Of a stretch of 22,689 nucleotides of DNA, positions 1,722-20,031 are shown piece by piece. The notes below the pieces were generated by a model. The model saw only the letters and a list, made by a program, of their open reading frames with translations. It was not told the origin of the DNA and made no database searches. Origin of the DNA: a virus. Position 1 is the first letter of the stretch, and every line of letters begins with the position of its first letter. The stretch spans positions 1-22,689 of the IMG/VR virus record IMGVR_UViG_3300042889_000722; one strand, 5' to 3'. The translations under genes and the position numbers were made by a program.

Positions 1722-4700
1722 ATGAGCCTACACAAGTTTGCCGACATGGTTGCCAGCAAAGGCCGTGGCGATGATTCCCTGCTGATTCACATGACGCCGG
1801 ATGAAGTCCAGCGTTTACAGTCTTTTGCCGAAGCTAATGGTCGTTCGTTGACCATCAATCCAGAGACAGGTTTGCCCGAAGCGGGCATGCTGTCGGACTT
1901 GTTCAAAGCTGTTGCCCCTATCGCCCTTGGAGCGTTCTTAGGCCCTGCTGGTGCAGCATTGGGCGGTGGGTTTATGTCTGCAGGCATGGCCGGTTTGACT
2001 GTGGGCGGCATCACCACTTTGGCTACTGGTAGCTTGTCTCGCGGCCTCATGGCCGGACTGGGTGCTTATGGTGGAGCAGGTCTTGGCGAAAGCCTGATGG
2101 GTGCTGGTACAGGCGCGTTAGAAGCTGGGGCGGCTACGGCGGCTCAAGGGCAGTTAGGGGCAGCAAACTTAGCGTTGGGAGAGGCGCTCCCTGCGCAAGC
2201 CGCTGAACAGTTCACAAAAGATTCAATAGCCCGACAAATGGCAGGCGCTACAACTTTTGACAAAATGGGCGCGGGGCTTGGGGCAATCACATCCAGCCCT
2301 TCTACATTAGGAACTTTTGCCAAAGATAATTTAAAGTATCTAGGCGCGGCTGCTACTCCTATCATGGCAGGGGCTATGGTTCCAACAACGACCAAGATGC
2401 CGGTGGACACTAACCCCGCATACATTCGTCAGAAGTTATACGACCCCTTTACCCAGACCTATAAGTCTTTAGCACCGGTTAAGGCTAGCGAATTTGGTAA
2501 CCGCAACTTCTCTGACGCATACACAAACCCGCAAACAGGTCAGATGGCTACGTTAGATCAGCGTCAACCTACGCCTATGGCTGGTGGTGGCATTGTGGCT
2601 TTGGCTGGTGGTGGCGTACCCGGCTATGCCGCTGGTGGTGTAAGTGACGCCGACATCCTTGGTTGGTTCAACGCAAACCCCGGCGCTAACGACACTTTAA
2701 TTGCTCAAACTATGCAACAAGCGGGTGTAACCCCCGACCAAGTAGCCCGCGCAACTGGAACAGATTACGCAAACGTCAATGAACGATACTTGGCAGCCAC
2801 GGCCCCTGTTACAACCGCCCCAACTCAAATGATGGATACTAGCGGTGGTGGGGGTTCTGCTGGTACGGGCTATCAATCCGTCAATGATTTATATCAAGGT
2901 GTTCTTGGTCGTGGTGTAGAGTCGGAAGGCGCTGCTGGTTATTGGCAGAATTTGTTTGGCCCCACGATTGATGCAAACGAAGTTGCACAATTTCAAACCG
3001 CAGCGCAAGCAGAGATTGACGCACGAAACACTGGGAGCGCTAATACTGGTATAGCCGCTTTAAATACAGGCATCACCGGTGCTAACACCCCTGCGTACAC
3101 AAACCAATACACGTATGCAAACATTAACGACTACATTGCAAACAACAACCTTGATGCAGCAGGTATTGCAGCGGCGGCTAAACAGTTTAATGTAGACCCC
3201 GCGCAAGTAACAGCGGCACAAAATGCCCAGTCAGTTGTAAGTAACGTTTTCCGTAATGTACTTGGCCGCGATCCAGACCCCAACGGCTTGGATTACTGGA
3301 CTAATCAAATTATGACTGGTAAGTCCACTGGGCAGGAAATGCTCAACACTTTTATACAGAATGCAAAAGCCAACAACGAAATAATTGTAAACCCCAATAT
3401 TAAACTCGATGATGCTGTAAAAGAGTTTGGCGGATACAAGTCATCAAACGCACGCGATATTGCAGACGAATGGGTACGCAATACGCTTGGCCGTGAAGTA
3501 ACTGCATCTGATAGACAGCAACAATGGTACAAAGACGCGGTTAATGATGCTGTAATGAACACATACGGCAAAGCGCAAGATATTTACGGCGGCTTTAAAA
3601 CTTATGCCAAAGGCGAAGCTACGGCTACTACTACTAAAGCAATCAACGATGCAAAAGCATTGCTTGCGGCCAAAGGACTTACAGAAACAGATGTTGTTAA
3701 GCAAACAGGAAAAACAATTGCACAGTTAGTTGAAGGCGGTACTAACTTAGGACTAGACCTTTACCAAGCTTCGCAATTAAAAGCACCCGGCGCGGCTTCT
3801 AAGTTTAATTTCAACACAATATCAAAAGCTACGGCTGTACCGCCTGTTGTACCACCTGTTGTACCGTCTGTTGTACCGCCTGCTGGCGTAATCCCCGGTG
3901 GTTTTTACGGCAACGCTACAAATCCCGGCGATATTACTCGCAATCCGGACGGCACAATCACGGTAACGCCTAACATTCCGTATCGTCCTTATGGCGGTTT
4001 CTCAGGCATGGGCGAAGTAAGAGACGCGTACACCAAAGGTGGCGGCAGTTTGGGCTACACATCTCCCGTGGTTAAAACTCCGGCTGAGCATGAAGCTGCG
4101 TACAACAAACTGACGGATGACTCGTTAGACGCGTATAACTTCCTGATGGGCAAAGGTAAAAACTTAGCGCAAACTAACGCGGCAAGAAGCAGGCCGTTGA
4201 TGCAGCCTTACTTTACAGAGTCCAATCGATACAAACCTAAGTTTTTATCTTATGGCAAAGATGGGGAAATAACATCGAGCGCAACAAGAGGCACTCCCGC
4301 AGACGCAAAAACAACCGAGTTGACCAAAGCTAAAACCATTGAGATTGTTGATTCTTCTGGCTACGACACGCAAACATATACTGCTGTGTTGCAAGAAGAC
4401 GGCACTTATTTGGCTGGCAACGGCAAACGCTACGACGTTACTGGTAAAGAACTTGCCGCTGGCGGCGGCATGATGGGGTACGCCATGGGCGGTGGTCTTG
4501 GCTCGTTGGGTTCTTACTCAGACGGTGGCCGTCTGCTCAGAGGCCCCGGTGATGGCGTGTCTGACAGCATCCCTGCAACGATTGGCCGTAAACAACAACC
4601 CGCACGTCTTGCCGATGGTGAGTTTGTGATTCCTGCACGTATTGTGTCTGAGTTGGGTAACGGCTCTACAGAGGCAGGCGCTAAAAAGCTTTATGCCATG

Positions 4701-4790
4701 ATGGATCGTGTACAACGTGCACGGGGTAAAACCACAGGTAAAAACAAAGTAGCGGCTAACTCCCGCGCTGATAAATATCTTCCCGCGTAA
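1722..4790 (+). CDS. Large virion protein with glycine modules, DUF4214-like repeats and conserved C-terminal tail
   Basis: A 1022-residue protein; GAGAGG lies five bases before the ATG and supports this start. Residues ~55-135 are Gly/Ala-rich and hydrophobic, resembling glycine-zipper membrane segments. Residues 286-307 are Gly-rich (MAGGGIVALAGGG and onward). Three LGR-centred helical modules begin their LGR at residues 395, 514 and 589. The second (LGRDPDPNGLDYW) matches the DUF4214 signature closely, the first moderately, and the third weakly. A 12-base tandem repeat encodes VPPV units at 706-721. A second Gly/Met-rich patch is at ~912-930. It is followed by a tail containing DGVSDSIPA, ARLADGEFVIPA and LGNGSTEAGA (~944-985), which I recall from many uncharacterised phage virion proteins. 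The role is probably an internal or ejection protein, or a tape-measure-like protein. No enzyme motif is visible. Confidence 0.6.
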   Translation: MSLHKFADMVASKGRGDDSLLIHMTPDEVQRLQSFAEANGRSLTINPETGLPEAGMLSDLFKAVAPIALGAFLGPAGAALGGGFMSAGMAGLTVGGITTLATGSLSRGLMAGLGAYGGAGLGESLMGAGTGALEAGAATAAQGQLGAANLALGEALPAQAAEQFTKDSIARQMAGATTFDKMGAGLGAITSSPSTLGTFAKDNLKYLGAAATPIMAGAMVPTTTKMPVDTNPAYIRQKLYDPFTQTYKSLAPVKASEFGNRNFSDAYTNPQTGQMATLDQRQPTPMAGGGIVALAGGGVPGYAAGGVSDADILGWFNANPGANDTLIAQTMQQAGVTPDQVARATGTDYANVNERYLAATAPVTTAPTQMMDTSGGGGSAGTGYQSVNDLYQGVLGRGVESEGAAGYWQNLFGPTIDANEVAQFQTAAQAEIDARNTGSANTGIAALNTGITGANTPAYTNQYTYANINDYIANNNLDAAGIAAAAKQFNVDPAQVTAAQNAQSVVSNVFRNVLGRDPDPNGLDYWTNQIMTGKSTGQEMLNTFIQNAKANNEIIVNPNIKLDDAVKEFGGYKSSNARDIADEWVRNTLGREVTASDRQQQWYKDAVNDAVMNTYGKAQDIYGGFKTYAKGEATATTTKAINDAKALLAAKGLTETDVVKQTGKTIAQLVEGGTNLGLDLYQASQLKAPGAASKFNFNTISKATAVPPVVPPVVPSVVPPAGVIPGGFYGNATNPGDITRNPDGTITVTPNIPYRPYGGFSGMGEVRDAYTKGGGSLGYTSPVVKTPAEHEAAYNKLTDDSLDAYNFLMGKGKNLAQTNAARSRPLMQPYFTESNRYKPKFLSYGKDGEITSSATRGTPADAKTTELTKAKTIEIVDSSGYDTQTYTAVLQEDGTYLAGNGKRYDVTGKELAAGGGMMGYAMGGGLGSLGSYSDGGRLLRGPGDGVSDSIPATIGRKQQPARLADGEFVIPARIVSELGNGSTEAGAKKLYAMMDRVQRARGKTTGKNKVAANSRADKYLPA
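3837..3884 (+). repeat. Four tandem 12-base repeats encoding VPPV
   Basis: Four consecutive in-frame copies of GTACCGCCTGTT with one or two substitutions in the later copies. They encode VPPV-VPPV-VPSV-VPPA at residues 706-721 of the 1022-aa protein. This is a proline-rich hinge between the DUF4214-like region and the C-terminal part. Copy number probably varies between relatives by slippage. Confidence 0.85.
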
Positions 4791-5849: not shown

Positions 5850-7670
5850 ATGGCTTATACACAACAGACGCCTATTGGCACGCCTGACGTCAACCTGATT
5901 ACAAAGACGTTGGCTGGTCTACAGCCGGACTCAGCACTGCAGCAGTATGCAATGTTGCATAAAAACAACCCTTACATTTTGTCATTGGCAAAGTCAGAAT
6001 CAGACCGCCGCAAGTCTCTACGCACGGCAGCACAAGGACAAGTGGGCCAACAGCCTACAGTGGCAGACCAAAGCATTGCAGGAATGGCTCCCGCGCCTAT
6101 GATGGCTCAGCAACAACTTCCAGAAAACCAAGGTATTGCACAGATCCCCGCGCCCAACATACAGAGCATGGCTGATGGTGGTATTGCAGGTTACGGCGAC
6201 GGTGATGATGTTCCAAGACAAAATGGCATGGCGCAGGGCGGTATGTACGACTTTGCCCAGCGTAGCGAGCCTGTGGTTCGTATGGCTGATGGCGGTCACA
6301 TTCCTCGTTATCAAGGCACGCCAAGATCTATCGGCGGCGACGGCAGTGTTGTAAGCAGTAACCCGATGTTCAACATCCCCAACTTTCAAGCAGTTACGCC
6401 TCGCGAAACGTTTACGCAAGAGGGTTCTCCTGAGAATCAAACAATGTTTGAGCGGCTTTCAGGGTACTTGGGAGACAAGAAAAAACAAGCCACGCTAAGT
6501 GAGATTGCTTATCGCATCCACACGGGTATTGCCACGCCAGAAGAAAAAGCGTTCTACCAAGCTGAGATGACTAAGCAGCCTGTTCAGAAACCAATGGGCG
6601 CTCCCAAAGACGTTGTAAACCCAGACGAAGTTTTGATGGCTACAGAAAAAGCGGGCAGAAACAAGGCAGCTACCGCCGACAAAGCCGAGAAGGATAAGCC
6701 TCCTGTACCACCAGTGGTTAACTTGCCTACAAGCTACAAGGCACCAAAAGCGCCCACTATTGACGAGGCTACAGCGTTAGGCGAGAAATTCTCCAGCTCA
6801 AAAGAACGTATAGGCGATATTAAACGCACAGTACTACAAGAGCAGATGGACGCCACCAACGCCAAAGAAAAAAGCATTGCCGCGCTAGAAGCATTTAATA
6901 AAAAACAAGGCCCTGCGTTTGCTGGCTACGAGCAGACCTTGAAAAAAGAAGAACTGCAAGATGCTACCGACAAAGAAAAGGCCGGTTTGATGGCGCTCTT
7001 CAAGGGTTTCTTAGGCATTGCCGCAGGCGAGTCGCCAAATGCTGCTGTAAATATTGCTAAAGGATCTCTGCTGGGCTTGGACGACTACAACGTCGCCATG
7101 AAAGATCTTAAAAAATCTGCCAAAGAACGCAACAAAGAGATGCAGTACATTGAGCAAGCGCGTCGTGCAGAAGATCGCGGTAATTTTGACAAAGCTCAAT
7201 CGTTTGAGGAAAAAGCCGAAACGTCTAGACAAGCCTCCGCTCGTTTTGGGATTGCCGCTATTAGTGAGATTACAAACACTGGCGCTAAGATTTCATCGGA
7301 CATCTTTAATACCATATCATCTAATACGTCGCGTGAGAAAATTGCTGGGATGGGTGAGGCAGCCGCAAATGCTCGTTTGATTACTCAACTTAACGCGCCT
7401 GACCCACAGTCTAAGTTCTACGGCAACATCGGCGGTGGAGACCCCAAAAAAGGTCTTGAGTTTTATTCAAGTGTGATGGGCCCTGAGGGTAAAGGCATAC
7501 AAACGCTATTAAAAGAATACTCTGGTTTTGCTGGAGAAGCTTTGCTCAAGTCGTTGGAAACATCTAAAGATCCCGCAGAAAGAGCTAAAGCTGCCACTAT
7601 CCGACAGTTACAAAAAGAACAACTGGCAGGCGGTTTTAAACCTGTCAATGTTGCCAGCGCTTTGCCTTGA
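5850..7670 (+). CDS. Helical internal virion protein with M-A-x-G-G modules
   Basis: A 606-residue protein starting two bases after the previous stop; AGGA at 5840-5843 is the ribosome site. Residues 1-60 are helical (LQQYAMLHKNNPYILSLAKSE). Residues ~70-160 are low-complexity, with M-A-x-G-G repeats at 107-111, 127-131 and 145-149 that echo the glycine modules of the 1022-aa protein. Residues ~250-480 are charged and rich in Lys, Glu and Ala with heptad-like spacing, so they are probably coiled coil. A hydrophobic break at ~375-395 (LMALFKGFLGIAAG) could insert into a membrane. The remainder (~480-600) is helical. There is no recognisable enzyme motif. It is probably an internal or ejection protein working with its neighbours. 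The function is inferred from context only. Confidence 0.55.
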   Translation: MAYTQQTPIGTPDVNLITKTLAGLQPDSALQQYAMLHKNNPYILSLAKSESDRRKSLRTAAQGQVGQQPTVADQSIAGMAPAPMMAQQQLPENQGIAQIPAPNIQSMADGGIAGYGDGDDVPRQNGMAQGGMYDFAQRSEPVVRMADGGHIPRYQGTPRSIGGDGSVVSSNPMFNIPNFQAVTPRETFTQEGSPENQTMFERLSGYLGDKKKQATLSEIAYRIHTGIATPEEKAFYQAEMTKQPVQKPMGAPKDVVNPDEVLMATEKAGRNKAATADKAEKDKPPVPPVVNLPTSYKAPKAPTIDEATALGEKFSSSKERIGDIKRTVLQEQMDATNAKEKSIAALEAFNKKQGPAFAGYEQTLKKEELQDATDKEKAGLMALFKGFLGIAAGESPNAAVNIAKGSLLGLDDYNVAMKDLKKSAKERNKEMQYIEQARRAEDRGNFDKAQSFEEKAETSRQASARFGIAAISEITNTGAKISSDIFNTISSNTSREKIAGMGEAAANARLITQLNAPDPQSKFYGNIGGGDPKKGLEFYSSVMGPEGKGIQTLLKEYSGFAGEALLKSLETSKDPAERAKAATIRQLQKEQLAGGFKPVNVASALP

Positions 7671-7679
7671 TGTCATAAT
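7651..7679 (+). promoter_or_regulatory. Candidate sigma70 promoter for the giant gene
   Basis: TTGCCA (7651-7656) and CATAAT (7674-7679) are separated by exactly 17 bases. Each hexamer matches the consensus at five of six positions. It overlaps the end of the 606-aa gene and predicts a transcript start near 7686, one base before a stable hairpin and about 59 bases before the giant gene's ATG. This is the best promoter match I found on the + strand, but it is not experimentally shown. Confidence 0.55.
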
Positions 7680-7686
7680 ACAAACA

Positions 7687-7712
7687 CCCCGGTAGGTTCG
7701 GCCTTATCGGGG
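7687..7712 (+). promoter_or_regulatory. Stem-loop in the leader of the giant gene
   Basis: CCCCGGTA (7687-7694) pairs with TATCGGGG (7705-7712): seven Watson-Crick pairs plus one G-U. A small inner GG/CC extension is possible. What follows is GTTAATCTC with no T run, so it is a poor intrinsic terminator. Its position at the predicted RNA 5' end fits a stabilising or regulatory 5' hairpin better. The ribosome site AGGA (7735-7738) lies outside the stem. Confidence 0.5.
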
Positions 7713-7744
7713 GTTAATCTCAAGCCGCACAATTAGGACACACC

Positions 7745-10700
7745 ATGCCACAAGCGCTCCCTTTACCAGACGGTAGATTTGTAACCATTAGGGAGGGTGA
7801 GACTCCTGCACAAACGTGGGAGCGGGCACAGCGCATGTATCCGGAAGCCTTTGGCGCAAAAGAAGCCCCTAGAAAAGAAACTACGGTTGGCGGTCAAGCC
7901 AAAGAGTTCTTCAAAGGTCTAGCCCCCGGTGCTATCAACTTGGTCGAGAGCGCTGCTATTGGTGCGTCTGCATTACTCCCTGAAGAAACCGAAAAAGCCG
8001 CACGCTCTGGTATTGCAAGTCTTGCAAGCTCCGCCAAGAAACCGTTTGAAGCTGCGGCTGGCTATGAGGACACTGTTGGGCGTAAGTTTGGCGAAGCTGC
8101 TGGCTCAATTATCCCGTTCTTAGGTCTTGGCCCACTGGGGGCCGCAGGGCGTGTTGGTATGGGTGCGCTTGGTGCTGGCGCAGGTGCCGGAGAAGCTCGT
8201 ACTCGTGCCGAAGAGGGTGGAGCCACAGAAGGACAACGCGCAGGTGCGACCGCTTTGGGTACAGTCGTTGGTATCAGCGAAATGTTTGCCCCCGCCCGTA
8301 TTCTGGGACGCATATCGGAGCCTGTTAAAGATGGCGCTGTATCCTATGTTAAACGTGCATTGATGGCCGGTGGTGAGGAAGCCGCACAAGAAGCCGCATC
8401 TCAAGCTGCACAGAACTTAATTTCCAAAGGCATCTACAAGCCTGACCAAGAAATCATTGAAGGCGTTGGCGAGTCCGCTGCTTATGGCGGCGCGGTGGGT
8501 GCGTTAGCGCAGGGCTTATTTGACTTGGCTCTTGGTCGTCGTACCAAAGGTGCGGGTACACCCCAACAAGAAGAGTTTGCAAAACTTCGTGCCGAGGAAG
8601 AGCAACGCCTTGAGGAAGAGCGCAAGCGTAAGACAACCCCTGAGTACGCACAAGAAGTTGTGCAGAAGTACGACGCACTGGCTAAACAAAAGCAAGACTT
8701 GATCGCGCAGTTTAAGAAAGTAGCAAAAGATTCTCCCACATACGATGCGGACAAAGCGTTTAACACGCAGATCAATGCACAACTTCGTGAGTTGACAAAA
8801 GAGATTACGCCTCTTTCTGAGGACTACTACAAAGCCAAAGGCATGCTTGGCCAGATGGCAGAGCAAGAGCGTGTTGCCAAGCTCACGCCACAAGAGTATG
8901 CGTTTGGTTTGGAGCCAGAGACAGAAGAGCAGAAGAAAGCGCTTGAGCCTGAGTTGTATGAACAACAGATTGCTAAGCCGCCTAAGCCTCCAGTTCAGCT
9001 GACTCCTCGACAACAAGTTGCAGAGTACGGCAACCAGCGTATTGCTTTGGCCAATGACCAGATGAATACTGCGGCCAGTTACGCGCCCAAGTACAAGTCG
9101 GAAGCTATCAAAGACTACACAGATTATTTGATGCAAGACTTTGCTTCTGCACAACAGCTTGTACAAACAAGGCCTACGTTAGAAGGTCTGCCAATGACAA
9201 AGGACAACAAGCCTTTGTTGCGCAGCGAAGAGATTTACGACTCTTTAAAAACACGCATAGCAGCAGAAGCCAAGACCGCTATGCAACAGCGTGCGCAAGA
9301 ACAGGCGCTTGACCAACAAAAGCTTACTACGCCGAAAGACCAGTTTGCTTTGTTGCGTGCATCGGAAGAACAAGTTGAAGAGCAGAAGCGAACGGCTGAG
9401 CCAAACTTTGACTATCTTGACCCAATGTTTGAGAAGGCCTTATCCGGACAGCCCGGTGCAGTTAAGGTCAATGAAAACCTCAGGCCATTGCGCGAAGCAC
9501 CTACAGTGCGTAAGACTGTAGACCAGTTGTTTGACGTTGTGGAGCAAGCAGATAGAGACTACCGCGCACTCCGTCGTCAAGGCAATAGAGATGCAGCAAT
9601 GGATGCATTCCAAAGGCTGAACACGGCAAACGACCAGCTTAACGCAATGGCTAAAGAACAGCCTGCTGGTACAGACACCAAAGGTTTGAAGCGCGGCCCT
9701 GCCGAGGAAGACACTCGTGCGTCTTATGCCCGTGAGTTGATTACTGCTCGTCGTGCTCAACAAGAAGCTATGGCTAAATTAGAAGACGCTACATCTGATG
9801 TAAGGTCTCAACTAACGCTTGGCAAAGAAACTGAACAAGTTCGCAACCCTGAAACGGGAGAAATGGAAACTAGACTTGTTGGTTTTGGTAAAGGCGTTGC
9901 AGAAACAACCGAAGCAAGTTTGGTTAAAAAGGCAGAAGAAGCTCGCGCACAATATATTACCGGTGCTTTGCAAGAAGCCGCAATCAACCGTCGTGCTTTA
10001 AATAGACCGGCATTGACAACAGACGAAGCCCTTGCCGCCGCGTCTAAACTTCATGATACCTTTAACAACTGGATTGAGCGTGCCAAAGAAAAGGGCGCGG
10101 CTCCTGTCTACGAAGATGTGATTATTGAACCCGCCCAGATGCGTGCCGACAAGATTGTGCGCTCTGCGGTTACTGAGCGTCGTCTGGTTAGTGGTGGTGT
10201 TAAAAAACTTAGCGAAGCTGAAATCAAACATTTCAGAGCAATTATCAATGCCGCTAGAAACAAGCTGACAGACGAAGCGCCGCGCAAAGTTGAGAAGGTG
10301 GAAGCCAAACCGCTCAACGTTCAGTTTGCTTCAGAGGAAGCCAAGAAGACTGCTGAAGCCCGTGGCGAGACAGCCACAACGCTTGGCGGAGAACTGCGTC
10401 GCCGTACAGAATTTGTGCGCAACAAGATGTCTAAGATGGGCGGCATGCGCCCCGGTGCTCGTGATGCGCTTAATGCTGCCGTTGATATTATGGACGCAGG
10501 CAAAGCTACTCGCGAGCTTTTGGATAAAGTTGAGCCTGTGGTTGACGCCATCGTTGCAAGACGCGACGTTAAGCAGGTAGACATTCAAGCCATCAAGGAC
10601 GCTATCCGCGCTACTGAGACTGTGCCTGAGGGTCAGAAGTCGCTGTTCCCTGAGATAGAAAAAGATCTGGGCTATATCCGCGCAACACCAAAGAATTTTG

Positions 10701-13700
10701 CTAAGTCACCGCGCATGAAGCCTGTGTGGGAAGCGCTAGATAAAGCTCGCGCTTTGTTTAAAAAGTCTGAGCAACAACGTCTTGCCAAAAAAGCAACCGT
10801 GGCCAAGCGCATGCAGTTTCTTGAAAGAGTCAAAGAACGCGGCGACAGCATCATTGCAGACACGCAATACTTTTGGAAAGATACAAGCCGTTATTCTAAC
10901 GAAGCGTTGGCAAAAGTGTTTGTGGGCATGCCAGAAGCAGGCACAACTCCGGAAGAAAAAGTTATTTTAGAAAAGTACCGCACGCTTCAGCCCATGTCTG
11001 CGCAAGAACAACAGACCGCTGATCGTTTGGTAAGAGAATTTAAAACAGAACATCTGCCCAAATACAGAAAAGAAATTGACGAAGCCGTGAAGTTGTTGGC
11101 GGACGGACGCCGTCTCGACGACACAGATAATCAGTTGTTGGCGTTTATGCAAGACACCAACGAAAATGTCCGCGCAGCAGCAAAAGCTTTGAACGACAGA
11201 TTGCAACCGCTTCGCACAGCTATCAAGCAAGTTAAAGAAGCTATGCGAAAGTCGTCAATCATAGACCCCGCGCAAAAAGCAATTCTTAATTCTGAGATAG
11301 CCATTAAGCAACAACGTTCACAGTACCAAACCGTTGTAGAAGCATCCATTAAACGCGCTCGTGAAGACATGGATGAAGCGTTGGGCTTCTTGCTAGACCC
11401 TGTCATTGCTAAGACGAGCGACAACCTCAAGGCGGCAGAAGCAACGCTTGCCAAAGAACAGGCAGAATTGGACAAGATTAAGAAACGTTTTGATGCGGTG
11501 CTGGCGCAAGAAAATGGTGCTAACCGCACCGAGCTTGCCACATACGAGTTGTTCCGTTACGAAGAAAAGAAGGGCGCTATTGACGACCTTAAAAAACAAG
11601 TTGCGGAACAAGAGTCAGAGCTTCAAGACTTGGTGGATGAGCGTGCAACAGACTACGACGGCGGCTACGCCGTAGCGCAAGCCATGCTTGACAGCAACGT
11701 TAAGTTTGAGCGTCAGTATTTAGAAATGTTGGAAGGCAGCCTTGCCAACATGCGCGGAGAGAGCGTTCTTGACAGACCCGGTTCCTATCCGTTTGCTTAC
11801 CAGCAAGCCAAAAAGAATGCCGATGCTCAACGAGCAACGCTTAAAGCTGCTGAGAAACGGGCTACAGAATTTAAAGAAGTTGCCAAATCTGACCAACAAC
11901 AGATGGAAGAGTTCTGGAAGGACAAGCTTGGTGGTGAGGGTATCAAACGCGAAGAAGGCAAAGTTGACCGCATTGAGACTTCTGCTGAGAAAGAAGCAGA
12001 TCGTTTGCGCAAGGAAGCGTCGGAAGCATTGGAGCGCGAAGAAGACGCGTTTATGCGCACCGCTCGCAAAGAACAGATATTTAAAACATACGGCGATCAA
12101 ATTGCTGATTTGTTGTTTGAGGCCGAAGGTATCCCCGGCCCTAATACTGAAGCTGAGCTCAAGAAGATCATCAACGACCCCAAGTCTGATTTCCAAGATG
12201 TTATCAACGCACAGGCAAAAGTTGGTGTGTTGCAAACAATTACATCTATTGAAGCACAAGCAGACGTGCTCCTTGAGGGCAAACCAAAACGCAAACAAAG
12301 CGCCGCAACAACGCTAAGCTCCACTGGCCAAGCCAAAGGCAAACCGTTGCGTGCAGGCACACTGTCTGAGAAAAGCATTGAGCGGTTGTTTAAACCTGAA
12401 CCAGCTAAAACAATTGTTGACCGCTTTGACTTTGGTGCGATAGATCGCGAAGAAGCTGACATAGGGCGTAGCAGTGAAGGCCGGACACAAGGCAGTTTTG
12501 ACTTTGGCGGTGACTTTAACTTCTCACGCGGCAAGCCAGCCAACAACACAACCGCCAAGGCTTTGAAGGAAGAGCTTGACGAAGCCATGGGCACCGACGT
12601 TACCGCACGCGGCAACGTAAAAATCTATAGCAGCGTCGCGGCTTTTGTAAAAGACAACCCAAAGTACGTAGACAAGATTCCTTCAGACGCCAAAGGTTTT
12701 GCTGAAAACGAACGCGCAGTTTTGTTTGCAGACAATATTGGTAAAGGCGAAGGCGTTGGCGTGTTGCTCCACGAGATTGGCGTGCACGTTGGCTTCCGCA
12801 ACTTCTTTAACGAAGCGCAGTTCAAACGCTTGGCCGACACAGTCAAAGGTTGGGCTAAACGCACAGACGGTTCTATTGAAGCGCAAATTGGCCGCAAGGC
12901 TATGCAACGCGTTGAGGCGGCGCAGACTCCTGCAAAACAAGTTAACGACGAACTTTTGGCATACGCGGTTGAAGAAGCTGTACAGGCTGGAGTGTTGGGG
13001 ACTAAGAAGGGTTCTGCTTACGGCTGGTTAAGCTCAATCATTGACGCCTTTAAGAAAGCGCTGAACAAGTTTGGCATTCCGACTAGCCAGTTTACCGCCG
13101 GTGATCTGGTTAACTTTGCTCATGGTTGCGCCCAGCTTGAACTTCGTGGCACATGGCACGGAACACATGCCGGATTTGATATGTTTGACTTTGCCTTTAT
13201 GGGCACCGGAGAAGGGGCGCAGGCTTTTAGTTGGGGCACTTACCGCGCTCAGAAAAAACGCATTGCCGAAAGCTACAAGGATGTTGGAAAACAAAGGCGA
13301 ATAGACGAGTGGGAAAAACTTCCTGAAATTATTAAATGGAAAAAATCGTCGGAGCCAACGTTTGAGGGGTACACCGTCGACAATTTTATTGAGTTTGCGC
13401 AAAACCCAAAACTCAAAGGCACAGAGTTGGCAGGCATTCCGCACAAATACGCGTTGGACTTTTCTATGCTGATGTCGTTCACAGACATTAGTAAGCACGA
13501 TTATGTGATGTTTGACCCCTACAACGACTCTCCTGCGCAACGTTGGAGCGATGCGCTAGCGCGGTTTGACGATGGTATGGACGAGGGGTTGCTTCCCTTG
13601 GAGGACGACGCTAAACAATTTCTTACAAAAGTGGATTTGGGAAAATTTGAAACGCCGTATAAAGACCCAACATTCCACGGGTACGATTGGAACGACCTCA

Positions 13701-16700
13701 GGATGTCGTTTAGAAGAGACGAGAAAAACAAAACCCCAACAAGTTTTGCGGCTGAAGAAGTGTTGTGGGCGTTGCGAGAAAATACGTCGACCGACACTTT
13801 TGAAAAGAAACTTGACGATGCAATAGCCGGTGTAAAAAAAGATGCGGAAGATATTATTCAAGTTTTTAAACCGGATCTTGAATACCACAAAGATGCTGTT
13901 CTTACGCTTGAGGGACTTAAGAAAATAAGCAGTAAAGATTTTGCATTTAATCCAAAAATGCCGCCGCCCGTACCCGAACCAACAACGGGCGGTGTATTGA
14001 TGCGGACAATACATACGCGTCCAGAAGACACGTATTTGTTGTGGGATTCCCAACTTAGCAAACAGCCTGCTCCTGTAAACGAAGCGCTTAAAAGCATCCT
14101 TCGTGATATGCGTCCAGACGCTAGACGACAGTTTGACCGCATAGTAAATGCTACAGGTGAAAATACGGGTGCTGGTTTTTACGAAGCGCTTAAACTAATT
14201 TCGCAGGGCAAGCGCTCCGCTTCTTTAATTCTTGCGTCTTACGGTATTTCAGGCAACAAATTTTTAGATCACGGTTCTAGATTCAAACCTGTTACTTCAA
14301 GGTCTACATACAACTATGTTGACTACACTGACAAAGAAGAAGGCGCAGAAATTGTTGCAATAGATCTTGAGCCAATTGGTAAAGCCAAGGGCATCTTGTT
14401 GTCGCGCAAACCGCAGTTTGCAGACCCTGAGTTTGAAAGAGTTAGCTCAACTGTTACTAGAACCGTGGCGCAGGACAAGACTTGGTGGGACAGCATCAAG
14501 GTCAACTTAACTGGCCTTGCGTTTGAGACACAGCTTGTTGACCGCTTTGCAGGCTTTGAGCGTTTGGCCAAGTACATGGAGCCGCTCAAAGGCACCCAGA
14601 TGTTGTACTACCTCCGTTCGTACGACCAACGCATGAACATTGTGTCTAAGGCAGTGTCTGATGGAGCGCCCTCAATTCGCGAAATAAAGCGTGATGATGG
14701 CCGTGTTGAGCGTCTTGTTGAGACAACAGGCGGAGCCAGTATTGCCGGTGTTGTGAATAAATTAAAGGATGCCAAACAGTACATTGGTAACGGCGAAGCT
14801 GTAAACCAAGTCTTTACAACTTACATGGCGGCTATTCGTGCCAAGAACAAAGGCATTGAGACGCTCAACTTTGGTAAGGACAAAGACGGCAAGCCTGTGT
14901 TGACACAGGAAATGCTTGATGAAGTTACTAACTTAGTTAACAAAAACAAAGCGCTTAAAGACATCTTTGAGGAAGCCCGTACAGAGTACAACAAGTACAA
15001 TCGCGACCTTTTGGACTTTGTAGCCAGCACTGGCGCTTTGTCTAAAGCGCTTGTCAAGAAGCTTGTGGCAGAGGACGATTACATTCCGTTCTATCGTGAG
15101 CGCAAAGGTGTCGTCGAGTTGGTGATCGGCAACGAGAGCCCCATCCGCATCGGCAGTATTGCCGAGCAGCCTTACCTAGACAAGTTGGTGGGAGGTGACA
15201 CAGCCATTATTGACTTCATGAATAGCTCGGTGCAGAACACCAACATGTTGGTGGACATGGGCATGCGCAACCTTGCAACCAAGAACGCAGTCATGGAACT
15301 GGTCGACCTGAAGGCCGCCACGTTGGTCAAAAAAGCTGAGGGCACAGACGTTGTCAAATTTAAAGTAGATGGAGATGACCGTTACGCGATTGTCGCTACA
15401 GAGAAGGTAATGATTGGCAACAAAGAGTTTGAGACAGGCGTGCCTGCGGACATTTTGGTCAAGGGCATGGAGGGTATTCCCACACAGATGCCGTTCCTGT
15501 TCCGTGTCATGGCTATGCCTGCGCAACTCTTACGTAAAGCTATTACGCTAAGCCCCTTGTACATGGCTAAGCAGTTGTTCCGTGACTCCTTGGCGGCTCC
15601 TATCCTGTCAGGCGCTGACTTTGTCCCAGTGCTTGGGGTTCTGCGTGAGGTAAGAGGCGCGGCTAAAGAGAAGTTAGAGAAGCGCGGTATTGTGGGCGGC
15701 CAATACTTCCGTGGCACAAGCGAAGACTTGTCCATGATCTTGCGCGAGATCTCGGACGGTCAGCCCGGATGGATGAAAGCTTTGGGAAGGTTTGAAGCTA
15801 TGGGTATGGAGGCGGACGCTCTCACACGTCGTGCCCAGTACAACAGCTACATTGAGCAAGGCTTGTCTGAGATGGAGGCTACGCTCATGTCACTGGAGTC
15901 CATGAACTTTAACAAGCGCGGTGCTTCTCCAAGCGTGCACGTAGCTAACGCACTGATTCCTTTCTTCAACGCACAGATCCAAGGTCTGAATGTGATGTAC
16001 AAGGCAATGTCTGGCAAGATGCCTTTCAACGACCAACTGCGCATCCGTGAAAAAATGTTGCAGCGTGGCGGCATGATGGCGGCGGCTACGTTTGCCTACG
16101 CCGTGATGATGGAGGACGACGAAGCCTACAAGAACGCTACACCAGACCAGAAATACGGTAACTGGTTTATACGTCTGCCCGGCTTGGACGAGCCCGTCAA
16201 AGTACCTGTGCCGTTTGAGATTGGCTACATCTTTAAGGCTATCCCTGAGGCGCTGTACAACAGCATGACCACTGAGCATGGCGGAGAAGAAGCAGTCAAG
16301 GCTTTCAAGCAGATCTTGTTGCAGACGATTCCCGGCGGTTCTTCTTACGGCATACCGCAAGCGGCCAAGCCTTTGATCGAGGTAGGTCTGGGCAAGTCGT
16401 TCTACACAGGCCGCGACATTCTGTCAGCACGCGAGAAACAGTTGTTGCCTGAAGAGCAGTACCGCGTCAACACCAGTGAAGCCGCCAAGCTTGTTGGTAG
16501 TACCTTGGGCGTGTCCCCAATCAAGATTGAGGCGCTTGTCAGTGGCTATACAGGAACGATGGGTCTGGCTTTCTTGCAGGCTATCAGCCTTGGCGTGCCA
16601 TCCAAAGAGACGCCAGAGAGGGCAGTTATGCGCTTGTCTGAGTACCCAATCGTGGGCGGTGCGTTCCAACCCAATGACGCAGGCGGCATCATCAACTCTG

Positions 16701-17011
16701 TGTATGAGCGCATGAACGAGATCTCTCAGGTCAAGTCTACTGTCAATAAGCTGTTGGAAGAGGGCAAGGTGCAGGAAGCTGAGGCCTTGATAACCAAGCG
16801 CGGCACAGAATATATGCAGTCTGAACTGGCCGACACGTTTAAGGCGAACATGAATATGTTGACACAGGCCGAACGAGCAATTGCCGCATCTAAGATGACG
16901 CCTGAAGCCAAGCGTGAACAGCTTGACAATATCAGGAAGATAAAGATTGGGCTTGCAAATACGACGCGGGAAATTTCCGATAAAACCATACGCCTAATTG
17001 GTGGTTCTTGA
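7745..17011 (+). CDS. Giant polyvalent virion protein: zincin + ADP-ribosyltransferase-like + LPD38-like regions
   Basis: A 3088-residue protein; AGGA sits six bases before the ATG. Visible order: a short N-terminal motif (LPDGRFVTIREGE); Gly/Ala-rich hydrophobic segments at ~55-265 that could insert into membrane; a very long Lys/Glu/Ala-rich helical and coiled-coil region at ~265-1560; a zincin-like module with HEIGVH at 1676-1681; an ADP-ribosyltransferase-like module starting at HGT 1805-1807 and completed near 2190; a helical linker; and an LPD38-like region at ~2575-2845 with a helical tail. Phage polyvalent proteins of this kind are known to combine peptidase, nuclease, ART and 'large polyvalent protein' domains. 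They are thought to be delivered with the DNA to disarm host defences or modify host proteins. Last gene of the late block, it probably has its own promoter. I found no T7/N4-type RNA polymerase motifs. The architecture is reasonably clear; activities and targets are inferred. Confidence 0.7.
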   Translation: MPQALPLPDGRFVTIREGETPAQTWERAQRMYPEAFGAKEAPRKETTVGGQAKEFFKGLAPGAINLVESAAIGASALLPEETEKAARSGIASLASSAKKPFEAAAGYEDTVGRKFGEAAGSIIPFLGLGPLGAAGRVGMGALGAGAGAGEARTRAEEGGATEGQRAGATALGTVVGISEMFAPARILGRISEPVKDGAVSYVKRALMAGGEEAAQEAASQAAQNLISKGIYKPDQEIIEGVGESAAYGGAVGALAQGLFDLALGRRTKGAGTPQQEEFAKLRAEEEQRLEEERKRKTTPEYAQEVVQKYDALAKQKQDLIAQFKKVAKDSPTYDADKAFNTQINAQLRELTKEITPLSEDYYKAKGMLGQMAEQERVAKLTPQEYAFGLEPETEEQKKALEPELYEQQIAKPPKPPVQLTPRQQVAEYGNQRIALANDQMNTAASYAPKYKSEAIKDYTDYLMQDFASAQQLVQTRPTLEGLPMTKDNKPLLRSEEIYDSLKTRIAAEAKTAMQQRAQEQALDQQKLTTPKDQFALLRASEEQVEEQKRTAEPNFDYLDPMFEKALSGQPGAVKVNENLRPLREAPTVRKTVDQLFDVVEQADRDYRALRRQGNRDAAMDAFQRLNTANDQLNAMAKEQPAGTDTKGLKRGPAEEDTRASYARELITARRAQQEAMAKLEDATSDVRSQLTLGKETEQVRNPETGEMETRLVGFGKGVAETTEASLVKKAEEARAQYITGALQEAAINRRALNRPALTTDEALAAASKLHDTFNNWIERAKEKGAAPVYEDVIIEPAQMRADKIVRSAVTERRLVSGGVKKLSEAEIKHFRAIINAARNKLTDEAPRKVEKVEAKPLNVQFASEEAKKTAEARGETATTLGGELRRRTEFVRNKMSKMGGMRPGARDALNAAVDIMDAGKATRELLDKVEPVVDAIVARRDVKQVDIQAIKDAIRATETVPEGQKSLFPEIEKDLGYIRATPKNFAKSPRMKPVWEALDKARALFKKSEQQRLAKKATVAKRMQFLERVKERGDSIIADTQYFWKDTSRYSNEALAKVFVGMPEAGTTPEEKVILEKYRTLQPMSAQEQQTADRLVREFKTEHLPKYRKEIDEAVKLLADGRRLDDTDNQLLAFMQDTNENVRAAAKALNDRLQPLRTAIKQVKEAMRKSSIIDPAQKAILNSEIAIKQQRSQYQTVVEASIKRAREDMDEALGFLLDPVIAKTSDNLKAAEATLAKEQAELDKIKKRFDAVLAQENGANRTELATYELFRYEEKKGAIDDLKKQVAEQESELQDLVDERATDYDGGYAVAQAMLDSNVKFERQYLEMLEGSLANMRGESVLDRPGSYPFAYQQAKKNADAQRATLKAAEKRATEFKEVAKSDQQQMEEFWKDKLGGEGIKREEGKVDRIETSAEKEADRLRKEASEALEREEDAFMRTARKEQIFKTYGDQIADLLFEAEGIPGPNTEAELKKIINDPKSDFQDVINAQAKVGVLQTITSIEAQADVLLEGKPKRKQSAATTLSSTGQAKGKPLRAGTLSEKSIERLFKPEPAKTIVDRFDFGAIDREEADIGRSSEGRTQGSFDFGGDFNFSRGKPANNTTAKALKEELDEAMGTDVTARGNVKIYSSVAAFVKDNPKYVDKIPSDAKGFAENERAVLFADNIGKGEGVGVLLHEIGVHVGFRNFFNEAQFKRLADTVKGWAKRTDGSIEAQIGRKAMQRVEAAQTPAKQVNDELLAYAVEEAVQAGVLGTKKGSAYGWLSSIIDAFKKALNKFGIPTSQFTAGDLVNFAHGCAQLELRGTWHGTHAGFDMFDFAFMGTGEGAQAFSWGTYRAQKKRIAESYKDVGKQRRIDEWEKLPEIIKWKKSSEPTFEGYTVDNFIEFAQNPKLKGTELAGIPHKYALDFSMLMSFTDISKHDYVMFDPYNDSPAQRWSDALARFDDGMDEGLLPLEDDAKQFLTKVDLGKFETPYKDPTFHGYDWNDLRMSFRRDEKNKTPTSFAAEEVLWALRENTSTDTFEKKLDDAIAGVKKDAEDIIQVFKPDLEYHKDAVLTLEGLKKISSKDFAFNPKMPPPVPEPTTGGVLMRTIHTRPEDTYLLWDSQLSKQPAPVNEALKSILRDMRPDARRQFDRIVNATGENTGAGFYEALKLISQGKRSASLILASYGISGNKFLDHGSRFKPVTSRSTYNYVDYTDKEEGAEIVAIDLEPIGKAKGILLSRKPQFADPEFERVSSTVTRTVAQDKTWWDSIKVNLTGLAFETQLVDRFAGFERLAKYMEPLKGTQMLYYLRSYDQRMNIVSKAVSDGAPSIREIKRDDGRVERLVETTGGASIAGVVNKLKDAKQYIGNGEAVNQVFTTYMAAIRAKNKGIETLNFGKDKDGKPVLTQEMLDEVTNLVNKNKALKDIFEEARTEYNKYNRDLLDFVASTGALSKALVKKLVAEDDYIPFYRERKGVVELVIGNESPIRIGSIAEQPYLDKLVGGDTAIIDFMNSSVQNTNMLVDMGMRNLATKNAVMELVDLKAATLVKKAEGTDVVKFKVDGDDRYAIVATEKVMIGNKEFETGVPADILVKGMEGIPTQMPFLFRVMAMPAQLLRKAITLSPLYMAKQLFRDSLAAPILSGADFVPVLGVLREVRGAAKEKLEKRGIVGGQYFRGTSEDLSMILREISDGQPGWMKALGRFEAMGMEADALTRRAQYNSYIEQGLSEMEATLMSLESMNFNKRGASPSVHVANALIPFFNAQIQGLNVMYKAMSGKMPFNDQLRIREKMLQRGGMMAAATFAYAVMMEDDEAYKNATPDQKYGNWFIRLPGLDEPVKVPVPFEIGYIFKAIPEALYNSMTTEHGGEEAVKAFKQILLQTIPGGSSYGIPQAAKPLIEVGLGKSFYTGRDILSAREKQLLPEEQYRVNTSEAAKLVGSTLGVSPIKIEALVSGYTGTMGLAFLQAISLGVPSKETPERAVMRLSEYPIVGGAFQPNDAGGIINSVYERMNEISQVKSTVNKLLEEGKVQEAEALITKRGTEYMQSELADTFKANMNMLTQAERAIAASKMTPEAKREQLDNIRKIKIGLANTTREISDKTIRLIGGS
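12602..13024 (+). other. Zincin-like metallopeptidase module within the giant protein
   Basis: Covers residues ~1620-1760. The core is GVLLHEIGVHVGF with H1676, E1677 and H1681, an HExxxH arrangement. It is preceded by AVLFADNIGKGEG and followed by DELLAYAVEEA, where E1736 is a candidate third zinc ligand. HExxxH instead of HExxH is rare but known, for example HELLGH in dipeptidyl peptidase III (family M49). Similar LLHE…GVH segments occur in phage polyvalent proteins. The substrate is unknown: it could cut the giant protein itself or a host protein. Confidence 0.55.
13142..14329 (+). other. ADP-ribosyltransferase-like module with long internal insert
   Basis: Covers residues ~1800-2195. The N-terminal half has WHGTHAGFDMFDFAF then GTGEGAQAFSWGTY (H1805, T1807, Y1833). 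This parallels the HGT…FD…GTGEGAQ.FG.GLYFA pattern I associate with ART domains of polyvalent proteins and, more loosely, with the PARP H…Y order. The C-terminal half appears at ~2082-2195: GGVLMRTIHTR, LLWDSQLSKQP, GISGNKFLDHGSR and TYNYVDY. About 230 residues of charged, unfamiliar sequence separate the two halves. The canonical LYFA is degenerate here (TYRA), so activity is uncertain. Confidence 0.5.
15467..16279 (+). other. LPD38-like region of the giant protein
   Basis: Covers residues ~2575-2845. Characteristic stretches are SPLYMAKQLFRDSLAA, EADALTRRAQYNSYIEQGLS, NFNKRGASPSVHVANALIPFFNAQIQG (residues ~2720-2746) and a hydrophobic MMAAATFAYAVMM, followed by GNWFIRLPG and PVPFEIGYIFKAIPEAL. 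I recall this series as the large polyvalent protein-associated domain 38 seen at the C-terminus of giant phage proteins. Its function is unknown. The helical, partly hydrophobic character would suit packaging or membrane passage. Confidence 0.5.
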
Positions 17012-17109: not shown

Positions 17110-20031
17110 TCACCCGGCTTTAGCTTCGCCCAAGGATACAGTATTACCATCAAAGACTTCTTCCCTGAAAGTTATGTGCATGGTGTTCACACGCATGGCA
17201 GGGCCGTTGGTACGGGACAGCATATCTTTCTTGACGTACTTGCAGGTAAACAACTCCTCCATCTGCGCCTTGAACTCGTCGTAGCCAAAGCTCATGCTCA
17301 CGCAATGCTTCTTGAGTAACTGCTCTTCAATGTAGAACTCTCTGTAACCCGGTGTCAAAAGCCCATGCTCCACCCTGCCAAGCACCTTGCTCTTGGTGGT
17401 CGAGCGGTCAACGATGTCGCCGTTGTCGCCCCACGCTGCTAGGATTCTGCCCTCGACTTTCTTCAGAACAATAAAGCTTCCGTAGTTGTCACCAATGTAG
17501 GCGTTGAGCACATCTTCAGCAGAGCGCACACTGTTCTTTATAATGCCACGGCCTTTCTCCACAAGTCCTTTCAGAGCGTTGATGACCTTGTTGATCTCCA
17601 CGTCGAGGATGCCAGAGTACTCCTTACGCAAAAGAATAGCCGCCGCCACAGTTGTAGTACAACCCGCATGCCAGTAGCGCTCATCGTCGTTGAAGTTAAA
17701 GACCTTTTTCAGATGGATGTGTACCTTGCGCACAATCTCCTCGGCAGTCTTCTGATTGACAGCTAGCCACCGAACCCAAGCCTCACCTGCTACGCCGTAG
17801 TTGCGTTTGATCTCAAGCAGAGTCTTGCGCTCTTCTGCGTTCCAGATAAGTTTCTTGTGTGGACACCACTCAAGCATTCGCAACAACTCGCCGTTTGAAC
17901 TGTGCTTGCGTGCCCCTGCCATGTAGTCTGTCAACTTCTCGTTACCCGTCATCGTGCAAGTAGCAGTCCACGTACTGTTATTGATACGTTCCTTGTTGGA
18001 GCCCGACTCCATACGCTCCTTGCCCTGACCCTCTGCGTAGTCAAAGATAAAGGCGGGTGCCCACTCCATGTCTTTGCGTTGGGTGTTGGTGATCTCGTCA
18101 ATCAGAAGCGGCATGCTGTTGAGCAAACCCGCCCGTTGTTGCATTGCAACAGGAGAAGTACTCTTGCCTGTGCGGTAGCGCAGGGGGTGACCCCACACAC
18201 CCGCCTTGGCACTTAGAACTAAAGACTTACCTGTACCTGACCACTGCGAGCCGATATGCCAAACAAAGCCTTCGTACTCAGTAAAGCGCATAAGCGGTGA
18301 TCCAAAGGAATCCAGAGACACAGCCAAGGCTGTCTCCATGCCCTCTTTCTCCACAAAGATCGTCTTCCACAGATGCCGCCACGTATCAAGGTCGCCCTTG
18401 CCGTTTGTGTTGCGGTTGATGTTCTCAAGCCCGGGCATAGGAATTCGAGTCTCGCGCCCATCTTTACTGAACACGCGGTTGTTGTAAACAAACGACTGAT
18501 CTGCCTGCCATCCACATTGGAACGGCACCTCGACTGGCTTGCGGTTCTGAGAAGCCTCGCCCACACATGAGCGCACATACTCAAACAACGTCTTGTCGTG
18601 ACCCGCAAAGGTACTGACAATGTTCTGACTGGCTAGCCACTTGAGCGTCTCGTCCTTGCTGACAATAGATTTCTGTGGAAAGTTGAGCGTCTGCACGCCT
18701 TCGGGTCGTACAGCGGCCATGTGAACCAAGTGGTCGTTCTCCATCTTCAAAAGGTCAACCACAAACAAGTCGTAGGGAACCAGTTGAATATTCTTCTTGG
18801 ACTTCTTGCCCTCTTCGTCTTCCTCAGTACGCGTGCAGTACACGCCACCATGCTCGCCATAGCTGTAGCCACGAGGGGGCACAGGACGTACCACGCTAGG
18901 TGCTAGGGGTAAACCCGTATCTTCTGGCTCGTAAGATTCCTCAGAGTCAAGCTCAGCTTCGTCAAAGTCTTCCTCGGCAGGCGCAGATAGCATGATTTCC
19001 TTGGCGGTGTTGTCCACCTTGATCTCGCGCCCCAGTATCAGTGGGTTGGTGATCTTGCCCCAGTGTTTGCACTTAGTGCAGATTCCGGGGTTCTCGCTGT
19101 CCATCTTCATGCACGCGTATGGCCCTTTGATCTCAGAAAGCTTCTGGTGCATCCGATCGTGCGGGTATGGGTGCATGTCCGACAACCAAACAGCCTTCTC
19201 TGCGCCATCCTCACAGACCTTCGCCCAAGACAGGAGCCCACGCCAGATGGGTTCCTTGCCATCTTCCGTAGCCGTGGCGATGTAGTCCTGAACCTGACCG
19301 CACTGGTTCTCAAAGTTTCCAAACAGCGTGAAGCTGTCTTGAATCAGCTTAACCTGACCGCGTGTCTGCGCCGTGGGGCGTTGGCCGGGGAGGTCTAGCT
19401 TGGTCGGAGGGGGTGCAGGCACCTCTTCCAACTTCTCATAAACAAGTGGCGAAAAAGTCGAGAAGTCAAAAATATCGCCTTCTTGGACTACGCGCACAGG
19501 GCGTGGCGTCGCGTACTTCTTCTTGTTGTTGGCAGTTCCGGGCACACGTAAGATGCGCGCAGTGTCCGCAGTCACCGTCATGTCGATGTTGAAGCCTTCC
19601 TGTTTGCACAGACGCTTCAAGTTCTCGGCAACAGGTTTCCATATAGTTGCAGGAATCTCGTCCTTCAACGGCCAGTAGCAATGCAAGCCCCCGCCTGAGT
19701 CAACCACCCATGGCGTACCTAGCGCATCAAGCCCAGACCTTGTCAGGAACTCAATTAGCGCGTCAGCCGCCGCCTTCTTGGTGGCGTATCCATCCAAGTC
19801 AACAAAGAACGATTTGAGGTACTGAGCTTCTTCAGCGCCGCGCTTCTTGTCAAAGGTAGCTACGCCATAGAAGACGTCATAGTTGTTGGCGTGCCACTGC
19901 TCGATCGTCGGGATGAGTTCCTCAATCTTTGCCGCATATACATGCTCTTTCTTTTTTGTGAGTTCTACCGCGCAATACAGGCCAAAACCTTCGGACGGCA
20001 AAACCACCGCTAAAAAATCAGCGGATGTCAT
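17110..20031 (-). CDS. Primase-helicase fusion: AEP-type primase plus DUF927-type ATPase
   Basis: A 973-residue replication protein. The ATG at 20031 is preceded on its strand by AAAGGAT at a good distance. Residues ~1-215 look like an archaeo-eukaryotic primase: FFVDLDG gives the metal-binding pair D78/D80, DSGGGLHCYW gives the S/H motif (S112, H117), and ARILRVPGTANNKK follows at 158-171. A cysteine cluster (C307, C318, C321 with H323; ICTKCKHWG) is probably a zinc site. An acidic linker (~350-370) leads to a DUF927-like helicase core with Walker A GSQWSGTGKS (594-603, K602) and Walker B LLIDEI (D645, E646). The protein would prime and unwind phage DNA. The final ~250 residues are unassigned. 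It is the last gene of the early block, 13 bases after the 71-aa gene. An integrative or plasmid-like origin function is an alternative, but I see no evidence for it. Confidence 0.8.
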   Translation of the reverse strand: MTSADFLAVVLPSEGFGLYCAVELTKKKEHVYAAKIEELIPTIEQWHANNYDVFYGVATFDKKRGAEEAQYLKSFFVDLDGYATKKAAADALIEFLTRSGLDALGTPWVVDSGGGLHCYWPLKDEIPATIWKPVAENLKRLCKQEGFNIDMTVTADTARILRVPGTANNKKKYATPRPVRVVQEGDIFDFSTFSPLVYEKLEEVPAPPPTKLDLPGQRPTAQTRGQVKLIQDSFTLFGNFENQCGQVQDYIATATEDGKEPIWRGLLSWAKVCEDGAEKAVWLSDMHPYPHDRMHQKLSEIKGPYACMKMDSENPGICTKCKHWGKITNPLILGREIKVDNTAKEIMLSAPAEEDFDEAELDSEESYEPEDTGLPLAPSVVRPVPPRGYSYGEHGGVYCTRTEEDEEGKKSKKNIQLVPYDLFVVDLLKMENDHLVHMAAVRPEGVQTLNFPQKSIVSKDETLKWLASQNIVSTFAGHDKTLFEYVRSCVGEASQNRKPVEVPFQCGWQADQSFVYNNRVFSKDGRETRIPMPGLENINRNTNGKGDLDTWRHLWKTIFVEKEGMETALAVSLDSFGSPLMRFTEYEGFVWHIGSQWSGTGKSLVLSAKAGVWGHPLRYRTGKSTSPVAMQQRAGLLNSMPLLIDEITNTQRKDMEWAPAFIFDYAEGQGKERMESGSNKERINNSTWTATCTMTGNEKLTDYMAGARKHSSNGELLRMLEWCPHKKLIWNAEERKTLLEIKRNYGVAGEAWVRWLAVNQKTAEEIVRKVHIHLKKVFNFNDDERYWHAGCTTTVAAAILLRKEYSGILDVEINKVINALKGLVEKGRGIIKNSVRSAEDVLNAYIGDNYGSFIVLKKVEGRILAAWGDNGDIVDRSTTKSKVLGRVEHGLLTPGYREFYIEEQLLKKHCVSMSFGYDEFKAQMEELFTCKYVKKDMLSRTNGPAMRVNTMHITFREEVFDGNTVSLGEAKAG

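Follow-up and report, generated by a model that had tools for sequence, protein, structure and literature searches.

The nearest phage case to the leader described here is that of gene 32 in T4, T2 and RB69, where an H-type pseudoknot in a phage mRNA lies 5' of an unstructured, A+U-rich ribosome-binding region (PMC3014915, PMC535899). As those accounts describe it, the knot, 67 nt 5' of the AUG, nucleates cooperative binding of gp32, forming an autogenous translational operator, and according to a 2010 review there may be no viral pseudoknot other than that of T4-type gene 32 that serves in translation autoregulation (PMC3014915). The tisB mRNA of E. coli carries a pseudoknot near its 5' end that is reported to be needed by S1 and the 30S subunit and is thought to load them (PMC7708055), and translation of timP is described as also requiring a pseudoknot (PMC11228461). 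Structured 5' ends are reported to block RppH and RNase E, and in E. coli the 5'-terminal stem-loops of ompA and papA, also when appended to bla, stabilize mRNA and sequester the 5' end (PMC3997798).

The window analyzed here is the whole of IMG/VR virus record IMGVR_UViG_3300042889_000722 (22,689 bases, one strand). In its ORF list, the final + strand gene, followed by a convergent - strand gene, is a giant gene at 7745..17011 that opens with an ATG at 7745 and encodes 3088 aa. Residues 2792-2970 of the product match Pfam PF18857 (LPD38, E = 1e-31), and genes 5' of it match one virion structural family and one DNA ejection family, so that the combination by which polyvalent proteins are recognized (an LPD domain, a giant protein and adjoining virion genes) occurs in full. 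The product is thus a putative phage polyvalent virion protein, its injection being predicted from the LPD domain and the virion-gene neighbors. The upstream gene (5850..7670, + strand, 606 aa) encodes a protein without a match in the family search. Between it and the giant gene lie 74 nt, the other gaps among the upstream + strand genes in the ORF list being short. Elsewhere in the window, a primase/helicase-like protein is encoded on the - strand at 17110-20031, convergent with the giant gene, and 1722-4790 encodes a protein of 1022 aa with a DUF4214 domain, whose final 77 residues match cyanophage-type records; a tRNA and tmRNA scan of the window found none.

A related-locus search of IMG/VR returned 66 loci, 65 of which have a readable upstream gene. 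In 30 of these, the window included, the gap before the giant gene is 64-87 nt and holds a leader. Among the 35 leaderless loci the gap is 1-11 nt in 31, and 16, 49, 143 and 156 nt in the remaining four, some of these starts being uncertain. The preliminary description had proposed that the giant protein could be made independently of the rest of the late operon, which fits with leaderless relatives starting, in those 31 cases, directly behind the upstream gene. Later scans brought in divergent members. The comparisons below use 84 regions upstream of related giant genes, from which identical upstream sequence had been removed and most leaderless relatives left out; the first search is represented only by L001-L019, L025, L026, L030, L052-L061, L063 and L064, and one further search contributed seven of its 13 loci. 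A pseudoknot leader is found in 55 of the 84 regions and not in the other 29, a proportion that gives no prevalence because the regions were selected rather than taken as a census. Of the 55 leaders, which are related to each other and so count as non-independent events, 33 were called automatically and 22 by hand, where a bulge or mismatch interrupts the ungapped helix; for L007, L057, L290 and L293 the scanner returned nothing and the assignment was manual, and for L283, L292, L304, L306 and L310 it favored another knot ending 30-31 nt 5' of the AUG. Common to all 55 are a sigma70-type -10 box, a GC-rich stem within 4-9 nt of it, and a short, weakly marked ribosome site.

The promoter elements named in the preliminary description, TTGCCA-N17-CATAAT, are located in the window as a -35-like hexamer (TTGCCA, five of six consensus positions, 7651..7656, + strand), which lies inside the 3' end of the upstream gene, and, after 17 nt, the CATAAT of an extended -10 of the form TG-T-CATAAT (TGTCATAAT, 7671..7679, + strand), with TG at 7671-7672 and the hexamer at 7674-7679. 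From the position of the -10, we infer an RNA start near 7686 (+ strand), 7 nt past it. Taken alone, the window is at chance level, with two promoter-like sites against 1.6 +/- 1.3 expected from shuffles of the region. Comparison among relatives is what identifies the promoter motif and the stem behind it as real, through the fixed distance of the -10 and the covariation of the stem. A hexamer that has A2 and T6 and matches the sigma70-type box at four or more of its six positions lies 4-9 nt 5' of the structure in 54 of the 55 distinct leaders, the distance being measured to the structure and not to a mapped RNA start. The match is 5/6 or 6/6 in 46 leaders, while among 770 shifted control windows 1.6% reach 4/6 and 0% reach 5/6. 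The lone miss, L197, has TACAAT 3 nt 5' of an extended stem. A -35 of at least 5/6 accompanies only 16 of the 54 (vs 1.3% of control anchors) and has therefore been kept in some lineages only, such as that of L052, L059, L061 and L063, with TTGACA at 18 bp. The TGn of an extended -10 occurs in 21 of the 54; leaders beyond those counts have neither element at that level, or one weakly. In a leaderless sample, such a -10 occurs anywhere within 77 nt in seven of 28 regions, which is the background rate, and L253 and L307 carry CATAAT without any hairpin. A sigma70-type promoter box dedicated to the giant gene is thus well supported by comparison.

Stem 1 begins, as had been claimed, at 7687, one base past the predicted start; its length, given earlier as 8 bp, is 10 bp, including two G-U pairs, formed by CCCCGGTAGG (7687..7696, + strand) with CTTATCGGGG (7703..7712, + strand). 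The window copy alone folds with z = -2.07, and five of 200 shuffles are equally good. Across 23 hand-aligned distinct elements (a bulged base was set aside in seven of the 23 rows), 221 of 230 cells are paired and 87 are altered on both sides. When whole 3' strands were dealt among the elements 2000 times, a procedure that ignores relatedness, paired cells averaged 133 with a maximum of 167, and double-sided changes averaged 24 with a maximum of 49. The number of pair types (31) was equalled in nine of the 2000 shuffles and is a less telling measure. A covariance model built from ten leaders with UUCGGC or AUCGGC loops recovered 11 held-out leaders of other types among 190,746 bases (E = 1.3e-6 to 0.022), and missed L017, L018, L251 and L253. 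The preliminary description had staked its hairpin on conservation and covariation of the stem in related phages, and the stem does covary, at a distance from the -10 that is fixed in all but one leader. Comparison across these upstream regions shows stem 1, its distance from the -10 and the spacing to the AUG.

A GC-rich stem next to late genes might instead be an intrinsic terminator or attenuator of the upstream genes, particularly as a T run follows it in some relatives (L053, L197 and L281, for example). Only 11 of 48 leaders, however, have at least five T in eight, the window copy has four T of eight and so falls short of a U-tract, the terminator scan of the window did not list the stem, and a terminator would not need a fixed distance to the -10 or the AUG. 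We regard this reading as very unlikely. N4 virion RNA polymerase uses a hairpin promoter. A promoter of that type was set aside for the present leaders because their stems show full sequence variation and close a long loop.

The loop of stem 1 in the window, TTCGGC, can do more than close a hairpin. After two bases of loop 1 (TT, 7697-7698, + strand), its CGGC (7699..7702, + strand) can pair with a downstream GCCG (7724..7727, + strand) that ends 17 nt 5' of the start codon, the 11 nt between stem 1 and this strand (7713..7723, + strand) becoming loop 3, so that an H-type pseudoknot results. Of the 5'-terminal hairpin originally described, the stem is thus present, but the hairpin is not a plain one, the second helix (7699-7702 with 7724-7727) making it a predicted pseudoknot. 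CGGC and GCCG are invariant in most leaders and as such uninformative; the case for pairing rests on lineages that have other letters on both sides. These are AAAGU/ACUUU (L017, L311 and L314), GACCC/GGGUC (L018), CCGGU/ACCGG (L309) and UCGGU/GCCGA (L251), together with L298, L333 and L349, whose knots have unrelated sequences. These three knots and that of L251 differ in stem length but keep the place and the spacing. With stem 1 held fixed and the end of stem 2 confined to 13-20 nt 5' of the start, the number of tail shuffles, of 5000, that did as well was 46 for the window, 83 for L018, 234 for L309, 441 for L017, 34 for L349, 12 for L298, 40 for L333 and 273 for L251, a combined Fisher p of 5.5e-8 over eight classes that were picked after inspection. 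With free position the per-sequence tests are weaker (56 to 346 shuffles out of 2000 performed equally well). In all 33 automatic calls, the end of stem 2 is 13-20 nt 5' of the start, and in 22 of them it is at 17 or 18 nt; in all 44 GCCG-AATT leaders, GCCG ends 15-18 nt 5' of the start. Compensatory changes, by which an H-type pseudoknot is recognized, thus occur in stem 1 and, in classes chosen after inspection, between loop and 3' tail, and they strongly suggest that stem 2 pairs and that the leader is a knot rather than a mere hairpin. A search of Rfam gave no match at the gathering score and three at chance level (E = 3.8-4.9).

A plain 5' hairpin that protects the mRNA, with stem 2 incidental, would also account for a structure that begins at the expected RNA start in 54 of the 55 leaders, and there is a related clade (L313, L316, L318, L323, L328 and L332) whose leaders have the -10 box and a plain hairpin of 6-7 bp with no pseudoknot. 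Against such a reading, GCCG and CGGC persist through complete changes of stem 1, and both halves of stem 2 have been replaced together in several lineages; for the leaders with both helices, we think it unlikely.

Between the knot and the AUG is an unstructured linker of 17 nt (7728..7744, + strand), with a conserved ACAATT (7729-7734) and a weak Shine-Dalgarno sequence, AGGA (7735-7738). AATT lies no more than 22 nt from the start in 49 of the 55 pseudoknot leaders vs seven of the 29 other regions. ACAATT is also kept in some knotless relatives (L248, L253 and L307) and may thus have a separate role. The stretch from -17 to +13 is more open than same-size windows within genes (0.63 vs 0.45; nested folding, 53 each). 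As comparison with relatives shows, the Shine-Dalgarno sequence is weak wherever the knot occurs: none of the 55 knot leaders has a strong one (-5 kcal/mol or better, a cut set after an earlier look at the data) vs 20 of 46 relatives without the knot, and the median anti-Shine-Dalgarno pairing is -3.0 with the knot and -3.9 without it (rank test, p = 0.006). In the plain-hairpin clade this pairing is -5.7 or better in each of the six members. L253 and L307, with a promoter but neither knot nor Shine-Dalgarno sequence, indicate that a weak Shine-Dalgarno is possible without a knot, and count against a simple exchange of one for the other. The preliminary description had suggested that a 5'-terminal hairpin may protect the message or time its translation; the weak ribosome sites point to a role in translation at least as much as to one in protection.

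The leader is bounded at two fixed points, the -10 box and the AUG, and we therefore treat knot and ribosome site as one unit. The explanation that we propose, to which we give about an even chance, is that the giant gene's own sigma70-type promoter starts an mRNA whose 5' end coincides with an H-type pseudoknot, or lies within a few bases of it, and that this knot shields the 5' end and aids 30S loading. The 10 bp of stem 1 would tie up the 5' end of the message, and stem 2 would join the loop to the GCCG 17 nt before the AUG, leaving the knot followed by an open ribosome site of 17 nt. Such a knot would withhold a single-stranded 5' end from RppH and RNase E, giving a longer-lived 9.3-kb message, and could bring the 30S subunit, probably via protein S1, to a start codon without a strong Shine-Dalgarno. 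Both functions are inferred; they are compatible with each other, and we give shielding and loading similar odds of being important, with lower odds for repression by a bound protein. Against the proposal stand the constancy of stem 2 letters in most leaders, the poor -35 in most lineages, the plain-hairpin clade, which manages without a knot, and L253 and L307, which manage with a promoter alone and no structure.

Repression of this kind would make the pseudoknot a translational operator, through which a bound phage protein shuts down the giant gene in the way that T4 gp32 acts on the mRNA encoding it. The layout is that of the gene 32 leader, with a 5' pseudoknot and then an unstructured, A+U-rich ribosome region (PMC3014915, PMC535899), and the much stronger conservation of CGGC/GCCG and ACAATT, compared with that of stem 1, is what a binding site would show. 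Stem 2 also exists in at least seven other sequences, which speaks against recognition of one set sequence by a protein, and, with one place per record in 19 of 25 records, the leader does not stand before an obvious repressor gene elsewhere. An operator is accordingly a doubtful alternative. A repeated regulatory site in the phage was rejected, since those 19 records each hold a single strong leader match; weak extra matches (E = 0.09-8.1) occur in five records, and the four stretches inspected contain no leader.

L001 (3001-3900) and L246 (2501-3400) are identical at 70 of 74 nt of the leader and at 36 of the first 36 residues, beyond which the proteins are unrelated (E = 0.24 for the best blastp match). 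This looks like a module that is exchanged as a whole, made up of the promoter, the knot and 36-45 N-terminal residues. The same pair would suit a DNA element, a recombination or packaging site that stands before the gene by chance and at which giant-protein modules are exchanged. This we consider highly improbable, given that the structure is on the gene's own strand and at a fixed distance from the AUG in the 55 leaders examined, that its G-U pairs and loop-to-tail helix fit RNA, and that a -10 box accompanies it.

Searches of named phages with the window DNA, the upstream protein, residues 1-1000 of the giant protein and the L053 and L309 starts gave no match. The last 688 residues of the giant protein match 151 named-phage records, six of which were inspected and lack such a leader within 100 nt upstream of the annotated start; that of phiARM81mr may be wrong, about 1.9 kb before it being without a listed gene. 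A search of bacterial genomes found no relative. In L389 (7520-7560), which is Escherichia phage PTXU04, the giant gene is preceded by a 41-nt gap with an 11-bp hairpin, the 3' arm of which holds a Shine-Dalgarno-like GGGGGAG, a different design. As a cultured coliphage, PTXU04 is a possible laboratory handle. No similar leader was found in the open-licence literature of PubMed Central. The leader therefore appears to be a previously undescribed form of structured phage mRNA leader, none being found in Rfam, in the named phages examined or in that literature. We can suggest only tentatively that it represents a new class of leader, one whose pseudoknot occupies the 5' end from the first transcribed bases on, takes the place of the Shine-Dalgarno in recruiting ribosomes for a giant injected protein, and evolves through replacement of whole helices while its spacing to the AUG stays fixed. 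In either case, the leaders form a compact, widely diverged family from uncultured phages, with many natural variants, plain-hairpin and structureless relatives among them, which would allow 5'-end protection, S1/30S loading and repression to be separated using short reporter leaders, and through them one can approach the question of how the expression of very large injected proteins is kept apart, in phages, from that of other virion genes.

The knot described here differs from that of the gene 32 leader in lying next to a promoter, in ending 13-20 nt from the AUG and in belonging to a giant virion-type gene. STAXI is likewise a small pseudoknot RNA candidate from metagenomes (PMC2864571), but there two or three copies are described in tandem, close to DNA-binding genes, whereas the present leader is a single copy before one gene and has no Rfam match. 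The ompA and papA stem-loops are, as described, simple hairpins, whereas here a second helix with conserved letters is added. In tisB, the standby site is reported to act on a processed mRNA, at a distance of some 100 nt from the ribosome site, which is sequestered; in the present leaders the ribosome site is open and adjacent to the knot.
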